In this document: positions 40,807-49,284 of the stretch, piece by piece | Layout of the letters: each line of letters begins with the position of its first letter | Position numbering within the stretch: the first letter of the stretch is position 1 | Source of the DNA: Methanolobus sp. ZRKC5 | GTDB lineage: Archaea > Halobacteriota > Methanosarcinia > Methanosarcinales > Methanosarcinaceae | NCBI RefSeq assembly: GCF_038446525.1 | Contig: NZ_CP151792.1 | Location: 1,984,001-2,048,000, forward strand | Direction of reading: 5' to 3' | Length of the DNA: 64,000 nucleotides | Notes under the pieces: model-generated | What the model saw: the letters and a program-made list of their open reading frames with translations, nothing else | Told to the model about the DNA's origin: nothing | The model's database searches: none | Translations under genes and position numbers: made by a program

Positions 40807-40961
40807 TTTTTACTGTTGATGTCCTTTTAGTTTCAACGTTACACAATAGTGTTGTTGTTACTTACAATCAAAAGTAGACAATACCTCGTCTTGATATGTT
40901 TATTATTGTTTCACGACAACTATTTATATTTTTGAATCCCTGATATTTATGGGAGATACGC

Positions 40962-41276
40962 ATGTCGGAAAAATCCTGGTTTTTTGCACTTAATGATAGT
41001 GATTTGAATGAGGGCAATATGGAGTTTGTCAGGGTAAAAGGAACACCTTTGCTTCTTATAAGGAAAAATGGAGTTATCTATTCACTTTTCGGTAAGTGTA
41101 AACATATGGGATGTCGTCTTTCTAAAGGAACTTTCAGCGATGAGTTTATTCTGAAGTGCCCGTGCCATGGCTGGGAATATGACATAAGGTCTGGCAAATA
41201 TCTTGGAGACAAGGACGAAGCTCTTGAATTCTACGAGAACAAGGTAGAAGATGGAGAAATACTTGTCCTTCTTTGA
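40962..41276 (+). CDS. Rieske [2Fe-2S] protein 1
   Basis: A 104-residue Rieske ferredoxin. The ligands are Cys46 and His48 (CKHMGC) and Cys66 and His69 (CPCH), the Cys-X-His...Cys-X2-His pattern. Two additional cysteines (Cys51 and Cys68) are conserved in all three tandem copies and may form a disulfide as in cytochrome bc1-type Rieske proteins. No signal peptide is present, so it is cytoplasmic. It is the first gene of a six-gene redox cluster. Confidence 0.9.
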   Translation: MSEKSWFFALNDSDLNEGNMEFVRVKGTPLLLIRKNGVIYSLFGKCKHMGCRLSKGTFSDEFILKCPCHGWEYDIRSGKYLGDKDEALEFYENKVEDGEILVLL

Positions 41277-41303
41277 ACTGTTCGTTACATAAGGAGGTCT
41301 GAA

Positions 41304-41609
41304 ATGACTTCGTGGGTAATAGTCGCAAATGATGTTGAAGTGAAAGAAGGTGAAATGAAACCCATGGATGTTGGGGACAAACAATTACTCCTTATCCGTA
41401 AAGGTGGGGAAGTGTTTGCTCTTGAGAACCGATGTCCACATATGAACTGTCATCTTGAGGGTGGTACCCTGCAGGACTATTCCCTAAAATGTCCGTGTCA
41501 CAGTTGGATATTTGATATTCGCACCGGGGCATACGTAGCATCCGATAAGATAAAAGTGAACGTGTACGATACACAGGTGAAGGATGGCAAGATAGCCGTT
41601 CTAACATGA
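41304..41609 (+). CDS. Rieske [2Fe-2S] protein 2
   Basis: A 101-residue Rieske ferredoxin and second member of the tandem trio. The ligands are Cys44/His46 and Cys63/His66, with the extra pair Cys49 and Cys65. It differs from copy 1 in most other positions, so the duplication is old. A strong AGGAGGTCTGAA ribosome site precedes the ATG. The stop overlaps the next frame. Confidence 0.9.
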   Translation: MTSWVIVANDVEVKEGEMKPMDVGDKQLLLIRKGGEVFALENRCPHMNCHLEGGTLQDYSLKCPCHSWIFDIRTGAYVASDKIKVNVYDTQVKDGKIAVLT

Positions 41610-41629
41610 TATGCAACAGGAATGTATCT

Positions 41630-41959
41630 ATGAATCAGGAAAGTAAATGGATATTTGCAATAAAGGAAGATGAACTTGCTGATGATGAAAAAAAGGCATT
41701 ATTACTTGAAGATGATAAAGTGCTCCTTATCAGAAAAGATGGTCTGTTTTTTGCAATATCCAATAAGTGTCCTCATATGGAATGTCCACTGTCAAAAGGT
41801 ACTCTGGAACAGTATATATTAAAATGTCCCTGCCATGACTGGAGATTTGATATTCGAAGTGGTGAGTTCCTTGATGCAAAAGAGATCAGGGTATCTGTCT
41901 ATGAAACAAAGCTCATGGATGGCGGTGTTTTTGTAAATATGGGAGGTGCAAGCAAGTGA
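41630..41959 (+). CDS. Rieske [2Fe-2S] protein 3
   Basis: A 109-residue Rieske ferredoxin with ligands Cys47/His49 and Cys66/His69 and the extra cysteines Cys52 and Cys68. ATG 41630 aligns its N-terminus with the other two copies; an ATG at 41606 overlapping the upstream stop is an alternative. The 3' end overlaps the glutaredoxin gene by 4 bases. Confidence 0.88.
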   Translation: MNQESKWIFAIKEDELADDEKKALLLEDDKVLLIRKDGLFFAISNKCPHMECPLSKGTLEQYILKCPCHDWRFDIRSGEFLDAKEIRVSVYETKLMDGGVFVNMGGASK

Positions 41960-42204
41960 AGAAAGTAGTTATGTACACACTCAGTACCTGCCCCTGGTGT
42001 ATGAGGGCAAAGAAATTCTTCAGGGAACAGGATATTCCCTTTGAGTATATTGATTATGACAAGGCAGATGACGATACAAAAAAGGCTATCAAGGATGATT
42101 GTCTTGCCCATGGTTCTGAAATGTCTTTTCCATTTGTGAAGGTCGATGAGGATGTCGTAGTGGGATACAATCCGGCCAAGTACTCAAAATTACTCAAGTT
42201 GTGA
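41956..42204 (+). CDS. glutaredoxin-like protein
   Basis: An 82-residue thioredoxin-fold protein with the redox motif CPWC at Cys12-Cys15, FEYIDYDKADDDTKKAI after it, and FPFVKVDED near residue 58 in place of the usual TVP loop. It starts with GTG overlapping the Rieske 3 stop. In the cluster it is the likely dithiol partner of the adjacent ferredoxin:thioredoxin reductase catalytic subunit. Confidence 0.88.
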   Translation: MKKVVMYTLSTCPWCMRAKKFFREQDIPFEYIDYDKADDDTKKAIKDDCLAHGSEMSFPFVKVDEDVVVGYNPAKYSKLLKL

Positions 42205-42210
42205 TCAAAG

Positions 42211-42552
42211 ATGGATAACGAAAAGCGTAAGGAGAAACTCAGGGCAATGTTCTCAAAGGTTGTAGATCCTCTGGGATACAAAATCAGTCCTGACACTGAA
42301 CTGGTTGATTTCTTACTTGAGCAGGAAGTTAACATCGAAAAAGAAAAAGGCAGTCCTTTTTGTCCCTGTCAGGGTCTTACAGGTGAAAGAGAGCATGATA
42401 TGAAGCTCGTCTGTCCATGTATACCTTTTCACAGGGAACACTATGATGCGATGAAGCGCTGCTGGTGTGGTCTTTATGTACACAAGGATATTGAAGACCC
42501 GGACAGTCTTATGCAGATATCTCTGCAAGAGTTCCTTGAATCAAAAAAATAG
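42211..42552 (+). CDS. ferredoxin:thioredoxin reductase catalytic subunit-like protein
   Basis: A 113-residue protein with the three dicysteine motifs of FTR catalytic chains: CPC (51-53), CPC (68-70) and CWC (84-86, in place of the usual CHC). These hold a 4Fe-4S cluster beside the active disulfide that reduces thioredoxin-like partners with ferredoxin electrons. Methanosarcina has a characterised homolog reducing a thioredoxin-fold protein; here the glutaredoxin lies immediately upstream. GTGATC precedes the ATG. Confidence 0.9.
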   Translation: MDNEKRKEKLRAMFSKVVDPLGYKISPDTELVDFLLEQEVNIEKEKGSPFCPCQGLTGEREHDMKLVCPCIPFHREHYDAMKRCWCGLYVHKDIEDPDSLMQISLQEFLESKK

Positions 42553-42563
42553 GAGTTGTTCTA

Positions 42564-43145
42564 ATGGGTGTGGAGAAAAATAGCGTAATTGAAAATATAA
42601 AGACACGAAGGAGTATCAGTGAATATACTGATAAGGAGGTAAGTGACGAAGACATCAAGAAGATAATTGATGCCGGTGTTCATGCACCTTCCGGTTTCGA
42701 CAGCCAGCCATGGTTCTTTGTTGTGATTAAGAATCGTGAAATGATGATGAGAATGTCAGATCATTGTAAACCGCGCCTTCTTACTCAATTAGGCGAGGCT
42801 ACAAATGATGCAGCTATAGCGTTCAAGAAAGAACTTGCAAAAGAAGATTTTAACATCTTCTACGATGCTCCTGTCCTTGTAATTGTTCTTGGAAACAATG
42901 CAGGTTTCACTACGGATTACGATTGTTCTCTGTGTGCTGAGAACATGATGCTTGCAGCTCATTCTATGGGCATTGGTAGTTGTTGGATAGGAACCGGGTG
43001 TTTCATTCAGGATAATCTTGAATTACTCGAAGAACTGGGGATTACACCTGATTACAGAGTAATTGCACCAATCGTATTTGGTTATCCTCTAGCAGAACCT
43101 GGAGAGATCCCTAAAAAAGAACCTGAAATTGTGTGGGTGAACTAA
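42564..43145 (+). CDS. nitroreductase family protein
   Basis: A 193-residue FMN flavoprotein of the nitroreductase family. The FMN-binding RRSISEYTDKEVS (about 13-25) and GVHAPSGFDSQPWFFVVI (about 37) are at the N-terminus, and the ENMMLAAHSMGIGSCWIG motif is near residue 126. The substrate is unknown. As last gene of the redox cluster it could be the terminal reductase that draws electrons through the Rieske or FTR proteins; this is inference from gene order. Confidence 0.9.
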   Translation: MGVEKNSVIENIKTRRSISEYTDKEVSDEDIKKIIDAGVHAPSGFDSQPWFFVVIKNREMMMRMSDHCKPRLLTQLGEATNDAAIAFKKELAKEDFNIFYDAPVLVIVLGNNAGFTTDYDCSLCAENMMLAAHSMGIGSCWIGTGCFIQDNLELLEELGITPDYRVIAPIVFGYPLAEPGEIPKKEPEIVWVN

Positions 43146-43239
43146 GTATTTTATCTTTTAATTAACCTTTTCATTCATTTTATTTTGAGCCAACAGCAAC
43201 TATATATTGCATCTGCCACCAACATTATATGGTGATACG

Positions 43240-46200
43240 GTGGGCATTAATCAATCTATTTTATGCAAGTTACTTATTGTTATCATATTATTAGGAGCTC
43301 AGTTTTATCCGGCAGTAGCTGCAAGTAATGAAGATCTGTTTTACAATGAAGATGATTCCTATATTCCTCAGGATACCCTTATGAGCTTATCGATGGTGTC
43401 CCAGATAAAAACCCAGACTCCATCTGATAATGGACTGGATGTTTTGGAACTCATAAATCTTACAACTGATCCCAGTGACAGTGATGGAGACGGCTTACCT
43501 GATTCCGTAGAACTTGTTCTTGGAACTGATTTTAATAATACCGATTCTGATTTTGACCAGCTTGATGATTATAACGAAACAGTGATTTACCTCTCTGATC
43601 CTCTGGAAATTGATTCTAACTACGACGGTTTTCCTGATAATCTTGAAGTTACGGATGTATCTTCCCTTGATGTTGATTCGGATGGTGTTCCCAATGTGTG
43701 GGATTTTGATAATGACGACGATGGTGTAGAAGACAATGTCGATCCTTCACCTTTTGCATCGTCTATCAGTTATGACACTTTTAATTTTGACCTTACGACA
43801 AACGGTAATCCCGTTTACATAGACTTCCAGCTTCTTCCAGAAGTACCTGGTCATGTAAGACTTGCCTACAAGGAATGGGACTGGCCTTATGATAACAAGA
43901 GTACAATGCAGGATCTTGATAATTCCCGGGATGACCTGAAACTCATACCACTTCTCGAACTGACCATGGATTCCGTTCCGCAGCAGTCGGATGTTGAAGA
44001 TTATGGTATCGGTATTTCCAGGGACCGGGCATATGTTCCGCTTTTCCAGGTCAATGGAATAGGAGGGGAGACTGCCCTTGCAGGAAAGATGTTCTATCCA
44101 CAATCCAGTACCACTGACATTCATATAAATGCAAGCCTCATGTGGCTTGTACAGGCAAACACCGACAGCCTGGATGAGACCAACGATACAATAATCACAG
44201 ACACCACCACTATTGTATCGTACAGGGAAAATTTTACCCTAACCGGTTTCAGTGTTGAGGAAAGTTATGGTAGCGATGTTGGAGTTTTCTACACCGATGA
44301 TTTTAATCAGAGCATAGCCAGCAATTTTATGCTCACATATTCATTTTTGAGAAACAACCAGTCTATCGTTCAGGAGATGTCCCAGAAGCTTTCCAGTCAC
44401 AATATTAGCATTTCATCTGACATAGAGGGTTTTGCACACCGTGATCTCGGATTAAAAGGTCTTACAACCAGAATGACACCCGATGCTCTGGATTCTCTTC
44501 CTGATAATCGTGTTCTTCCGGTTATAACTGCGTTGCAGAATGATTTTTCAAAAAAGGATCTCTATGAACTTGGATCAGGCTCTGCCACAATTGGCAATGA
44601 TATTTCTATAGATATGCGCAGTGAACCGGTCATTTCTTTAAAGACCATGAAGACCAACTGGTTCAATACAACAGATAACACCCCAGCAGATTCTGATTCC
44701 ATATTAAGTGAATTACAGGATTGGGGTAATGTGGTTAATGTAGATGAGGATGCACTGTCATCTTTAATGACTCTGGCAGTCGTCTGGAGTGCAGGTGAGT
44801 CAAAGGTTACAAAGATTGGTGATTCACTGATTAGTTTCAATGACCAGCACGCAATAGACGTTGTCAGTGATGTCCAGTTATGGACCAGTACTGCTTTCCT
44901 TGCTACTACTACTTTAATAGATATAATTGCCAATACGGCGGAAGTAACATACAGGGTGTATGTCCTTGCGAATATTATCAGTAAAGGCTGGGATGGAGCT
45001 ATGAAAATAGCTAATGGTATTACAAAGGGTGCATCCAGTCTGGGTAAAGTATTTGCTGTAATTGGTGGAATTACATTGGTGATCGGGTTTGTACTTGATG
45101 CCACTTTTGCGATATGGGGTTTCTTTAAGATAGCAATGGAAACAGGATGGTCAAATACTGGTACTTTGCAGGGGGCGGTCTATGCTACCATTATGCTGGG
45201 ATACGCCGCTGTGATGTTTGCCATTGGCGCCGTTATTCTGGCGTGCGGATTCATACCTTATGTGGGATGGATAATCGCACTTGTAGGCGGCATAGTTCTT
45301 GGACTTGTAGCTCTTGCTGATTTCATACTTAGTTTCTTCGGAATAAGTTTCGCTGATTTTGCCGCATGGGTTGTAAGCCTTTTCCATCAAACATATCCGA
45401 ATACGGAACATTCTCTGGATATAATTAATACATCACTTGATATGGAAGACCACGACAGTAACGGCTTGAGTGCGAAAGACAGGATAATTTTTAAGAGTTA
45501 TATAAACGGAACGATTACAAGTACGTCGTCTGGTACCTGGCAGGATGTTCAGGATAGTTACATTGTTCCGCATTACAAAGTCAGGCGGTGGATGTGGGCG
45601 AATGAAAGTACTCCGTACTTCTACTGGAGCTCGGCTTATGGTGATTTCAGCAATTTAGTGTCTACCGTTGAATCAAATCCGGATTACAGGAACACCACCT
45701 ATGAGGTTGGTGCATGGATCGAACCTGCATCGGGTGCAGGTAACTTCCCACTCCCGATTGTGTTTGAAGCGGATTACAAAGTGATATATACGGAACGTAA
45801 AATTGAATGGGACTTCTGGAACGGTTACAAATACAGCCTTGTTGATGAAACAGGTACTGTCAAAAGTGAAGTGGATGTACTTTACTTTGATGTCCTTCCC
45901 GGAAGTGTAGGTGATCTTGCAGACTGGTATTATATCTCCTCATTAGACAATGACTTTGACGGTCTTGGTAACGATGATGACCCGTATCCATGGGCATGGG
46001 ATACCGATGGTGACGGACTAAGCGATGCCTTTGAGATCAACTCGGCAGGTTCCGATCCTTCCAACCCCGATAAGGATGGAGATGGTCTGAATGACAGAAT
46101 GGAGATCCTCTACGGTACAGACCTCACAGACTTTGATTCTGACAACGATAACATGTCGGATTACAAGGAGATCACCGGCTGGGAGATTAGCTTCAACTAC

Positions 46201-49200
46201 AGTAATCAGACCTTCAACATGACCGTTCACTCCGATCCTCTTGATATGGACAGCGATGACGATGGTATTGATGACCAGATGGAATATTGGAGTTCTCTGA
46301 ATCCGATGTCAGCAGATACGAATGGTGATGGTGTTGCCGATGTAGCTGATCCTCAACATATAACATATGTGAATTTCGAGACGAAATGGGGCAGTGAAGG
46401 TTCCGATGATGGGGAATTCAACAGTCCTGTGGCAGTGACAGTGGATTCTGAAAGATATGTCTACGTTGCAGATTCAGGTAATCATCGCATTCAGAAATTT
46501 GATTCCAGCGGCAATTTCATCAGCAAATGGACACCAATAACTGGTGAAAATTCCAGTCTGCATATGATTGATATTGCTGTGGATCAGGATGATAATATCT
46601 ATGCATTTGGAAGTATGTCCGTAGAGAACAACTTTTATTCAGAAATCATACAGAAATTCGATTCAAATGGTAGTTTCCTCTCTTCATGGAATGTAAGCTC
46701 GGATCGTGGCTTTGGAATTACCAGTGACGGACACATCTACATCTATAATGGTGTACCATATGTTGGACTCCGTAGCGGATTATTTGATATTTTCAATTCA
46801 AGCGGAACATTAGTCGGGAACATGACATTTACAGGTGGAAACAAGGTATTTGAAAGCTTTTCAACAATGGCCGTTTCTCAGGATGGTTATTTCTATCTGA
46901 CGGACGGGTATGACTGGCATAACAACGGTATATTCAAGTTCGATCCTAACGGAACGTTTGTTAAGAGATGGGGAAGCGAAGGAGGTTCGGATCACAATTT
47001 CTCATGGCCTGAAGCACTTGCAGTTGATGAAAAGGGATATGTTTACATTGCTGACACAGGTAATCATCACATTCAGAAATTCAGCTCGGATGGATTTTTC
47101 GTTACCAGATGGGGCCAGTTCGGTGTAAACGATAGTGAATTCACTAATCCCACAGGTATCGCAATTGATGCTGATGAGAATGTCTATATCAGCGAAGGAT
47201 CTCGTTATTGGGGAACTGCTGGAAACCGCATACAGAAATTCTCTCAAATAACGGATATTCCACCACGCAACGTATCCGACACTATAGATACCGACGGTGA
47301 TGGTCTCTTTGACAATAATGAAACCGCAGGATGGGATGTGACTTTCACCAGTTCAAAAGGTACGTACACTGTTCATGTTGAAAGTGAGCCTCTTGTAAAG
47401 GATACGGACTTCGAAGGTCTGAACGATCTGCAGGAATTCAACAGTTCTTCCAACCCGAATGACGTTGATACCGATGATGATGGTCTGAGTGACTATGTAG
47501 AATTCACCATTGGAACAAATATTACTCACTACGATACCGATGGTGATGGCCTTAATGACATGACCGAGATTATTTTTGGAAGTGATCCGAAAGTGGTTGA
47601 TACTGATGGTGATGGTCTCTTTGATGATGAAGAGTTTGACTTTGGCTCCGACCCTACAAAAGAGGATACCGATGAAGATGACCTTACGGATAAGGAAGAA
47701 AAAGACTTCGGTTCCAATCCGCGCAATCCTGATACAGATGGAGATTTGATGTTTGATAAGACAGAGGTCAATGAAACTGGCTCTGCTAACAATTCCGACA
47801 CCGATGGCGACGGCCTACTTGACGGTCTTGAACTGCTGTACAATACCAGTGCAAGGAACAATGACACTGATAAGGATGGCATACCTGATGGTAAGGAAGT
47901 CGACAACAGGATGAATCCGAAGAGTAATGATACCGATGGTGACGGACTAACGGATCTGTTCGAGTTCAACAACGGTACCGATCCTACTAACAGGGATACT
48001 GACGGAAACGGCCTGAACGATTCCGAAGATCCGTACTCATTCGCGACCAATGCCGAAAGAATATGGGTCAGTTACGATGAGACTGATAATTCTCTGCAGT
48101 TGGTCGATGACCTTGAAAGGTACACCAATGTGACAGTTTTCCAGCCTGAAGATATCGGCAATTATAGCGATAAAGAAAATATCCTGTTTGTCGGAAGGCT
48201 GGGAACGGACAGCAGCACGGCAGGCAATATCACTATGAACATACTTGCATCCGTTACGCCGGAGAAACTCCTTGAAATGCAGGAATCGGATTACAACAGG
48301 TTTGCTGTGGAGTACGATGTGTGGTCTGATAATCAGACAGTTGTTATGCTATCTCATCCGTATCCTAATGACCATTACAGAGTGCTTGAATTGTTCAAGA
48401 CGAGTCCCCAGGAAATGGAATATCAGGATACTGTAAAAGAGTTCAGGGTAGATTCCATTGATAAAATGGGACTTTACGTGATGGTTGAACTTAAAAACCC
48501 TGTAAAGCCTTCTATAAAACTGAGCCAGTACGACGAAGATGAACTTGCTCACAACCTGAGTTACGGACTGGCATCAGGAGACCTTGGTGTTAAATTCCTG
48601 AATATCAATGTAAGCGAGAATGTCATGAACGGAACTGTCAACAACATCGATCGTGCTCTCATAGTCATTTACTATACCGCACGCGACCTTGACAGGACCG
48701 GTGATCTTGACGGTAACGATGTCGATGATATCGATGAATCCACACTTTCGATGGTCTGGTACAATGAGGACAGCGGACAGTGGGAAAAGATGAGCACTGG
48801 TATGGATTGGGTGCATAATATCGGGGTAAACACCGATAATGACATCATTGGCGGCAAGGAATACGAGGGTTACATGTGGGCTAATGTATCTCATTTTAGC
48901 ACTTATGGTCTTTCCGGAGGAGCAAGAACTGAAAATGTTGAGCAAACAGATGACGATGACAGTCCTCTGGATTCCGACCGTGATGGTTTGTATGACTTCA
49001 TAGAACGAAGAATGGGTACGGATCCTTTCAACCCGGATACTGATGGTGACGGTATCATTGATTCGGAAGATGATGATCCACTAGTTTCTTACATGTCTGT
49101 CGTTGATGAGGATAGAGACCAGTCAGTATCAGATCATATGGAAGACACACAGGATGACACTCAGGCAATGTCAACAGAAGATGGAGGTGCACCTGCTGAA

Positions 49201-49284
49201 AGTACATCTATGCTGTTCTGGATTCTTGCGTTCATAGTTATTGCATTGCTGGCTGGTTTTGTAGCGTTGCGGAAAAAGGAGTAA
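43240..49284 (+). CDS. giant surface protein with TSP3 repeats, internal hydrophobic block and NHL propeller
   Basis: About 2014 residues. The order is signal peptide (to about residue 35), calcium-type thrombospondin-3 repeats (43460-43750), a beta-rich region and a hydrophobic block with glycine-rich helices (44875-45345). Then follow a beta domain, TSP3 repeats, a six-bladed NHL-type propeller (46375-47250: VYVADSGNHRIQKFD units) and a long TSP3 array of DTDGDGL units (47280-48040). A conserved C-terminal domain ends near a HFSTYGLSGG segment, with final TSP3 repeats and one C-terminal membrane anchor with a basic tail. The GTG start at 43240 has GGTG upstream; a TTG at 43207 would break the signal peptide. 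GGTG can pair with CACC at 43217-43220. It is probably an adhesin or S-layer-associated protein. Confidence 0.88.
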   Translation: MGINQSILCKLLIVIILLGAQFYPAVAASNEDLFYNEDDSYIPQDTLMSLSMVSQIKTQTPSDNGLDVLELINLTTDPSDSDGDGLPDSVELVLGTDFNNTDSDFDQLDDYNETVIYLSDPLEIDSNYDGFPDNLEVTDVSSLDVDSDGVPNVWDFDNDDDGVEDNVDPSPFASSISYDTFNFDLTTNGNPVYIDFQLLPEVPGHVRLAYKEWDWPYDNKSTMQDLDNSRDDLKLIPLLELTMDSVPQQSDVEDYGIGISRDRAYVPLFQVNGIGGETALAGKMFYPQSSTTDIHINASLMWLVQANTDSLDETNDTIITDTTTIVSYRENFTLTGFSVEESYGSDVGVFYTDDFNQSIASNFMLTYSFLRNNQSIVQEMSQKLSSHNISISSDIEGFAHRDLGLKGLTTRMTPDALDSLPDNRVLPVITALQNDFSKKDLYELGSGSATIGNDISIDMRSEPVISLKTMKTNWFNTTDNTPADSDSILSELQDWGNVVNVDEDALSSLMTLAVVWSAGESKVTKIGDSLISFNDQHAIDVVSDVQLWTSTAFLATTTLIDIIANTAEVTYRVYVLANIISKGWDGAMKIANGITKGASSLGKVFAVIGGITLVIGFVLDATFAIWGFFKIAMETGWSNTGTLQGAVYATIMLGYAAVMFAIGAVILACGFIPYVGWIIALVGGIVLGLVALADFILSFFGISFADFAAWVVSLFHQTYPNTEHSLDIINTSLDMEDHDSNGLSAKDRIIFKSYINGTITSTSSGTWQDVQDSYIVPHYKVRRWMWANESTPYFYWSSAYGDFSNLVSTVESNPDYRNTTYEVGAWIEPASGAGNFPLPIVFEADYKVIYTERKIEWDFWNGYKYSLVDETGTVKSEVDVLYFDVLPGSVGDLADWYYISSLDNDFDGLGNDDDPYPWAWDTDGDGLSDAFEINSAGSDPSNPDKDGDGLNDRMEILYGTDLTDFDSDNDNMSDYKEITGWEISFNYSNQTFNMTVHSDPLDMDSDDDGIDDQMEYWSSLNPMSADTNGDGVADVADPQHITYVNFETKWGSEGSDDGEFNSPVAVTVDSERYVYVADSGNHRIQKFDSSGNFISKWTPITGENSSLHMIDIAVDQDDNIYAFGSMSVENNFYSEIIQKFDSNGSFLSSWNVSSDRGFGITSDGHIYIYNGVPYVGLRSGLFDIFNSSGTLVGNMTFTGGNKVFESFSTMAVSQDGYFYLTDGYDWHNNGIFKFDPNGTFVKRWGSEGGSDHNFSWPEALAVDEKGYVYIADTGNHHIQKFSSDGFFVTRWGQFGVNDSEFTNPTGIAIDADENVYISEGSRYWGTAGNRIQKFSQITDIPPRNVSDTIDTDGDGLFDNNETAGWDVTFTSSKGTYTVHVESEPLVKDTDFEGLNDLQEFNSSSNPNDVDTDDDGLSDYVEFTIGTNITHYDTDGDGLNDMTEIIFGSDPKVVDTDGDGLFDDEEFDFGSDPTKEDTDEDDLTDKEEKDFGSNPRNPDTDGDLMFDKTEVNETGSANNSDTDGDGLLDGLELLYNTSARNNDTDKDGIPDGKEVDNRMNPKSNDTDGDGLTDLFEFNNGTDPTNRDTDGNGLNDSEDPYSFATNAERIWVSYDETDNSLQLVDDLERYTNVTVFQPEDIGNYSDKENILFVGRLGTDSSTAGNITMNILASVTPEKLLEMQESDYNRFAVEYDVWSDNQTVVMLSHPYPNDHYRVLELFKTSPQEMEYQDTVKEFRVDSIDKMGLYVMVELKNPVKPSIKLSQYDEDELAHNLSYGLASGDLGVKFLNINVSENVMNGTVNNIDRALIVIYYTARDLDRTGDLDGNDVDDIDESTLSMVWYNEDSGQWEKMSTGMDWVHNIGVNTDNDIIGGKEYEGYMWANVSHFSTYGLSGGARTENVEQTDDDDSPLDSDRDGLYDFIERRMGTDPFNPDTDGDGIIDSEDDDPLVSYMSVVDEDRDQSVSDHMEDTQDDTQAMSTEDGGAPAESTSMLFWILAFIVIALLAGFVALRKKE

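Follow-up and report, generated by a model that had tools for sequence, protein, structure and literature searches.

The genome of Methanolobus sp. ZRKC5 (3.05 Mb, one contig) carries six consecutive plus-strand open reading frames (ORFs) at positions 40962–43145 of the window analysed here (the whole 64-kb stretch of DNA), which encode three small Rieske proteins (R1–R3), a glutaredoxin (GRX), the catalytic chain of a ferredoxin:thioredoxin/disulfide reductase (FTR), and a nitroreductase-family protein (NTR). We propose, with a probability of about 0.6, that this operon would constitute a Rieske-dependent disulfide-reduction chain in which electrons pass from Rieske to FTR, to glutaredoxin (Grx), and then to client proteins. 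Judged by its gene neighbourhoods, the module has a core of one Rieske gene together with Grx and FTR, to which particular lineages have added further Rieske copies (three in all here) and NTR. ORF reading and Pfam bear out the coordinates and gene calls of a first-pass annotation of this DNA, which had described all six genes as one chain. The six genes are:

40962..41276, +, R1, soluble Rieske protein, 104 amino acids (aa), CKHMGC...CPCHGWEYD; PF00355, 66.7 bits, E 1.8e-18
41304..41609, +, R2, soluble Rieske protein, 101 aa, CPHMNC...CPCHSWIFD; PF00355, 77.2 bits, E 9.1e-22
41606..41959 (likely start 41630), +, R3, soluble Rieske protein adjoining GRX, CPHMEC...CPCHDWRFD; PF00355, 69.4 bits, E 2.5e-19
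41956..42204, +, GRX, dithiol glutaredoxin, CPWC, 82 aa, GTG start; PF00462, 43.2 bits, E 4.7e-11
42211..42552, +, FTR, ferredoxin:thioredoxin/disulfide reductase catalytic chain, 113 aa, CPC-x14-CPC-x13-CWC; PF02943 (FeThRed_B), 91.5 bits, E 4.1e-26
42564..43145, +, NTR, nitroreductase-family protein (flavin mononucleotide expected), 193 aa; PF00881, 110 bits, E 1.9e-31

Conservation of the Rieske-Grx-FTR order

A search with an FTR alignment, covering one genome per species, yielded 67 loci, reduced to 66 by dropping L131, which has no FTR match; the search patterns favoured the FTR subfamily of the module, and the fractions that follow describe that subfamily, not all FTRs. The first-pass annotation had let its proposal depend on conservation of the neighbourhood, and the order proves to be kept across phyla, with a complete R-GRX-FTR set on one strand in 59 of the 66 loci and a Rieske gene beside FTR in 64. 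Spacing is tight, with gaps of 30 bp or less between R and GRX in 55/59 cases and between GRX and FTR in 61/63. The commonest architectures are R-GRX-FTR-R' (19 loci, R' being a Rieske gene downstream of FTR in other phyla) and R-GRX-FTR (17), followed by three Rieskes-GRX-FTR-NTR (9), two Rieskes-GRX-FTR-NTR (8), NTR-R-GRX-FTR-R' (3), and three single variants that hold R-GRX-FTR. The remaining 7/66 are partial (GRX-FTR-R' and R-FTR-R', two each; FTR-R', GRX-FTR, and FTR alone, one each), some of them at contig ends.

Archaeal holders among these loci are Methanosarcinaceae, Methanoperedens and Bathyarchaeota, and bacterial holders are Fibrobacteres, Treponema, Actinomycetota, several Clostridia/Bacillota, Chloroflexi, Ignavibacteriae, Prolixibacteraceae, and Myxococcales/Deltaproteobacteria. 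Outside Methanosarcinaceae the module is patchy, and because presence is patchy while the order is fixed, the distribution suggests horizontal spread as a unit. In 16 of 16 checked genomes of other groups the single FTR at E <= 1e-6 is that of the module, and in an Actinomycetota sample 5/346 genomes matched, of which two hold the module and three a fused form described below. The outer neighbours vary, and we found no operon-wide functional neighbour common to all lineages. In Methanoperedens-type loci (L088 4756–6309, and similarly L103, L111 and L126) a small protein, without a Pfam match in L088, and then a glucose/sorbosone dehydrogenase-like gene lie 3' of the module.

Within the family, PF00355 matched in 75/111 genomes and PF02943 in 108/111, and 40 stretches around chosen Rieske places were read. 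Same-genus stretches with arrays contain Rieske, GRX and FTR in 24/25 cases and NTR in 24/25 (L033 lacks NTR). The stretch without an FTR match, L036 in genome G055, has matches for R1, R3, GRX and NTR, and a second R-GRX-FTR module copy (L059) is present on another contig. Methanomethylovorans (g11) has Rieske, GRX and FTR in 6/6 stretches and NTR in 5/6, with L049 ending too soon to tell, and genera g2, g9, g10 and g12 have one Rieske with GRX and FTR and no NTR in 5/5 stretches read. The Rieske gene stands alone in L057 and L060 (genus g13) and in L058 (a second place in the host's genus). A sample of 294 genomes from the host's phylum gave 26 FTR matches; 25 of these are at E <= 1e-53 and all 25 are flanked by GRX and Rieske, and the 26th (G019, 1e-20) has neither. 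In the host genome itself there are three FTR places and four Rieske places, and the window operon is their sole co-location.

Natural fusions of FTR with its partners

FTR–Rieske fusions were surveyed in the class of one Actinomycetota genome, where 57/246 genomes matched and loci were read in 30 of the 57; for the other 27 we have open frames of fitting length only. In 30/30 loci read, the FTR domain runs into a Rieske domain within one ORF, mostly of about 217–235 aa, and the Grx gene lies directly beside it in 29/30, the remaining locus (L179) being cut off. Pfam finds both domains in the three fusions scanned. The FTR part reads CWC in 30/30, and the fused Rieske reads CPWH and has the cysteine pair discussed below in 0/30. 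The fusion is thus evidence by analogy, since its Rieske lacks this pair and falls in a different clade from R1–R3.

The second proposed contact is represented by the glutaredoxin/ferredoxin:disulfide reductase (FDR) fusion of PDB 7PWE, the two halves of which match the window GRX and the window FTR family. The two kinds of fusion, FTR–Rieske and Grx–FTR, between them cover both proposed contacts and so link FTR with Rieske on one side and with Grx on the other. In the FTR–Rieske form, the Rieske domain takes the position of the small electron carrier in archaeal FDR.

The Rieske proteins and their cysteine pair

In addition to the cluster ligands CxH and CxxH, R1–R3 contain two further cysteines (CxHxxC...CPCH), which we take to be the classical disulfide pair of respiratory bc1/b6f Rieske proteins. 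The first-pass annotation was therefore correct in reporting an extra conserved cysteine pair, although this is a familiar bc1-type feature and not a novelty, and it occurs here without the bc1 serine. Among the loci found with the FTR alignment, both cysteines are present in 87/88 Rieskes that lie upstream of FTR (full-motif rows; three further rows without the full motif are excluded), and the pair is present in 0/28 R' proteins. The position of the bc1 Ser is Trp in 88/88 upstream Rieskes, and that of the bc1 Tyr is Phe in 60 and Tyr in 28. In an alignment of 38 Rieskes that adjoin Grx, invariance is confined to the four ligands, both extra Cys, two Trp (including Trp79), and one Gly. NCBIfam matches in the comparison with cytochrome bc1/b6f Rieske subunits and sulredoxin are far under cut-off.

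The AlphaFold model of R3 (predicted local distance difference test score, pLDDT, 90.9) is nearly all strand, and its nearest PDB fold is the naphthalene dioxygenase ferredoxin (TM 0.80/0.90). No cytochrome b was found among nine window proteins scanned with Pfam, and no oxygenase subunit among these nine or among 20 proteins scanned from other loci. A fold like that of electron-donating Rieske ferredoxins, with no oxygenase seen, would fit a carrier role for R3.

A Rieske tree was built from 134 sequences; it has few columns and many open forks, its Methanosarcinaceae loci are a selection, fusions were limited to ten, and rows without the full motif were dropped. The 'up' and 'dn' labels in the tree follow the cysteine pattern, and the figures by position given above come from the separate count of 88 upstream and 28 R' rows. 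Support by the Shimodaira–Hasegawa-like approximate likelihood ratio test (SH-aLRT) is 96 for the R' clade, 98 for the fused Rieskes, and 95 for the disulfide-type Rieskes including R1–R3. The R1-type genes of Methanolobus (g1) and those of g11 form one clade (SH-aLRT 99), as do ten R2-type genes (SH-aLRT 98). Because Rieskes of positions 1 and 2 cluster by position across species, and those of position 1 across two genera, the tree indicates that the triplet is old within Methanosarcinaceae and rules out a recent local triplication. The Grx-adjacent R3 takes the place of the single Rieske gene found in other phyla. Long open frames had suggested a Rieske–Rieske fusion in G051 and G058, but on reading a stop separates the genes.

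Features of GRX, FTR and NTR

The CPWC motif is kept in 40/40 aligned module Grx proteins, and GRX and FTR are separate ORFs in the window. The FTR score of 91.5 bits compares with a curated PF02943 cut-off of 22, and its six cysteines (CPC, CPC, CxC) do not vary in either of two alignments, A2 with 22 rows and A4 with 25. In FTRs these six cysteines serve a [4Fe-4S] cluster and the active-site disulfide. The third motif is CWC in all rows of both alignments, and the histidine of the plant-type CHC is not there; by its motifs the window FTR is not of the plant type, and the CYC of 4TPU likewise lacks the His. FTR ends at 113 aa with FeThRed_B as the sole domain found, so there is no C-terminal rubredoxin domain. 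The best PDB matches of the FTR model (pLDDT 89.1) are 7pwe and then 4tpu.

The host's other two FTRs lie at L197 3067–3351 and L195 1462–1737; one has CHC as its third motif, and the other has CFC as its first and CKC as its third. Their neighbourhoods lack a Rieske gene; by names given by eye, the L197 FTR lies beside a hybrid-cluster-like protein and the L195 FTR after a rubrerythrin-like ORF and a flavodiiron-like protein. Some Methanolobus loci have a Grx-type ORF with an N-terminal extension (L026 5274–5837, minus strand; L030 1000–1407, minus strand; L059 5458–5850), which in L026 and L030 is within the operon and adjoins the normal GRX. The FTR profile scores 30 bits on the L152 copy, and the extension may derive from an FTR N-terminus. 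NTR contains five cysteines (C68, C121, C124, C140, C146) that are invariant in 30/30 aligned relatives; the nearest PDB nitroreductase, 3ek3, also has a cysteine at the aligned position for at least two of the five, and we do not claim a metal site.

Gene starts, promoter and flanking genes

The R3 and GRX ORFs overlap by 4 bases. The first-pass annotation had described two such overlaps, but the one between R2 and R3 requires R3 to start at 41606, and there is an inner ATG at 41630. In two relatives, L039 and L123, the start codon aligned with this ATG has an in-frame stop ahead of it, so R3 probably begins at 41630, the R2/R3 overlap is probably not real, and only the R3/GRX overlap is trustworthy. 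Upstream of the genes lies one further feature:

40912..40936, +, promoter-like element CACGACAACTATTTATATTTTTGAA, TATA box plus fixed upstream octamer, 26–50 bases 5' of R1

In aligned upstream regions the element is nearly identical 5' of 21 operons (the window and 20 Methanolobus/Methanomethylovorans loci), and sequences farther upstream are not conserved. Its first 17 bases have one exact match in the host genome. With up to 2 mismatches there are three genome matches, fewer than for a reversed control (17), and we do not claim a regulon sharing the element. One of the three is ~100 bp 5' of the fourth Rieske gene of the genome, a lone gene with the cysteine pair (C1:86664–86987; L196 3165–3488, minus strand). 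Similar lone Rieske genes are present in 18 other family genomes among those read, and in G000 and G042 the lone gene has a promoter element similar to the one before the operon. Of 20 lone-Rieske regions taken, with the Rieske read in 19, L207 and L219 contain a match of this type and L222 a weaker look-alike. On the 3' side of the operon are a 2025-aa ORF (window 43207–49284) and then a similar ORF (65% identity match); the repeats of the former resemble, by eye, calcium-binding thrombospondin-type and NHL-like motifs.

Proposed mechanism and alternatives

We suggest that the small cytosolic Rieske [2Fe-2S] proteins would hand over electrons one at a time to an FTR-type [4Fe-4S] disulfide reductase that stands alone; this enzyme would collect two electrons on its active-site disulfide and then reduce the CPWC glutaredoxin; the reduced Grx would pass the reduction to client protein disulfides. 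Electrons would presumably enter from reduced ferredoxin or, where it is present, from the flavoprotein NTR, and the three Methanolobus Rieske copies would be old paralogues, probably for different donors or conditions. Gene order, tight spacing, cofactor and active-site residues, and the fusions are observed directly; the direction of flow, the electron source, and the clients are inferred.

Several observations weigh against this proposal, and energetics is its weak point. Rieske proteins with a disulfide pair usually have a high potential, and donation from such a Rieske to a low-potential FTR would be uphill; the bc1 serine raises the potential, and its loss should lower that of the module Rieskes to some degree; a high potential is suggested by the cysteine pair and a lower one by the absent serine. 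The fused Rieskes and R' belong to other clades than the window Rieskes and lack the pair. Two Methanoperedens loci are R-FTR-R' without an adjacent Grx, and L036 retains R, GRX and NTR without an FTR match. Loci outside Methanolobus are mostly metagenome bins, and the module was present in 1/280, 1/281 and 1/277 sampled genomes, each time the genome on which the sample was centred. The distances of R, GRX and FTR are correlated (r 0.64–0.70, 58 loci, 0/2000 permutations), which speaks for the proposal, but such a correlation is expected for any linked genes.

The operon could alternatively represent two parallel stress outputs, with FTR/Grx driven by ferredoxin and the Rieskes serving NTR or another detoxification partner, without contact between Rieske and FTR. 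This would agree with the presence of NTR beside the module in both Methanolobus and Methanomethylovorans, with the distant member of its family that adjoins the module in each of three Actinomycetota loci, and with the Rieske-free settings of the host's other FTRs, but we consider it unlikely given that the Rieske-Grx-FTR core is kept without NTR in many loci and that Rieske and FTR are fused in all 30 loci read. It is quite improbable that the Rieskes are clients, with Grx/FTR reducing or repairing the cysteine pair or rebuilding the cluster after oxidant damage: the near-universal pair in upstream Rieskes of many phyla and the superoxide dismutase (SOD) neighbours described below fit such a role, yet R' and the fused Rieske remain linked to FTR without the pair, and a client fused to its own reductase is not expected. 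The upstream Rieske might also be a disulfide-switch protein, its pair opened and closed by Grx/FTR so as to couple a one-electron cluster to two-electron thiol chemistry; this is a tentative and quite unlikely reading, but if it were true R1–R3 would act as sensors as well as carriers, and the thiol-Rieske stress circuit to which they belong would be widespread among anaerobes.

Electrons running the opposite way, from Grx dithiols through FTR to a higher-potential Rieske acceptor, would make the module a thiol oxidation route. The bc1-type cysteine pair of R1–R3, typical of high-potential Rieskes, points in this direction, but Trp at the bc1 Ser position in every upstream Rieske, the similarity of the R3 model to donor ferredoxins, and the fact that most holders are from groups usually taken as anaerobic make it very unlikely. 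Chance clustering of unrelated small redox genes, to which the variable outer neighbours would lend themselves and nothing else does, is extremely improbable, being already refuted by the conserved neighbourhood: the order is identical in many phyla, the spacing is tight, and fusions occur.

Regarding the role of the proposed Rieske-driven chain, an Fe/Mn-SOD gene lies directly 3' of the module on the same strand in L094, L115, L116 and L124 and not in L092, that is, in four of the five loci titled Actinomycetota, Actinomycetes or Thermoleophilia. Three of these four (L094, L115 and L124, not L116) also have a nitroreductase gene ahead of the module, and these neighbours hint at oxidative stress as the likeliest setting. 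The SOD genes lend indirect support to the protection from oxidants that the first-pass annotation had suggested. The Actinomycetota nitroreductases score 62–76 bits versus 330–375 for the methanogen ones, so the two associations look independent. It is possible that the module feeds a flavoenzyme.

Comparison with known systems

The component families and the Grx/FTR pairing are already known; we did not find the Rieske linkage, its breadth, or the FTR–Rieske fusion described. No description of a Rieske-Grx-FTR cluster was found in the open-access literature searched, although this gene neighbourhood may have been noted in earlier surveys of FTR. The suggestion of the first-pass annotation that this is an undescribed electron-transfer or disulfide module holds to this extent, and the module is conserved, but it is not a speciality of methanogens, being present in several bacterial phyla. 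If Rieske-driven, it would offer electrons a new way into thiol redox control, one shared by several phyla of bacteria with methanogens and anaerobic methane oxidisers, and would assign a function to soluble Rieske proteins whose operons show no Rieske oxygenase. With the FTR–Rieske fusion, a single purified protein plus its Grx would be enough to test the central claim directly.

In known FTR and FDR systems electrons come from ferredoxin or from the protein's own rubredoxin-like domain, and Methanosarcina barkeri reportedly offers, by the title of a reference, a precedent for Grx/FDR as the reductant system of a class III ribonucleotide reductase. Plant and cyanobacterial FTRs (1DJ7, 2PU9, 7C3F) share the catalytic chain fold and cysteine scheme but use CHC, thioredoxin and a plant-type ferredoxin, whereas the window has CWC, Grx and Rieske. 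The bc1/b6f Rieske subunits and sulredoxin share CxHxxC...CPCH with the disulfide pair, although the module Rieskes are only ~100 aa and carry Trp where bc1 has Ser. In Archaeoglobus fulgidus the Grx and FTR genes AF1534–AF1536 adjoin and were more than 2-fold induced in thiosulfate growth (PMC4543118), but the word 'Rieske' is nowhere in the main text of that article. The M. acetivorans FDR (4TPU) is likewise archaeal and has the FTR-type catalytic fold with CPC/CPC/CxC in a single chain; unlike the bare 113-aa CWC domain of the window with its Rieske genes, it has CYC and a C-terminal part with a rubredoxin-like CPxC stretch. Aromatic dioxygenase Rieske ferredoxins (2QPZ, 1VCK, BphA3) have the same soluble Rieske fold of ~100 aa (TM-score about 0.8–0.9); they differ from the module Rieskes, which carry the two additional cysteines and lack an oxygenase partner among the proteins scanned. 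The Desulfotalea psychrophila Grx/FDR fusion (7PWE), the top PDB match of the FTR model, also makes one unit of Grx and FTR, but these are fused and there is no Rieske in the chain, whereas the window has separate genes together with three Rieske genes.

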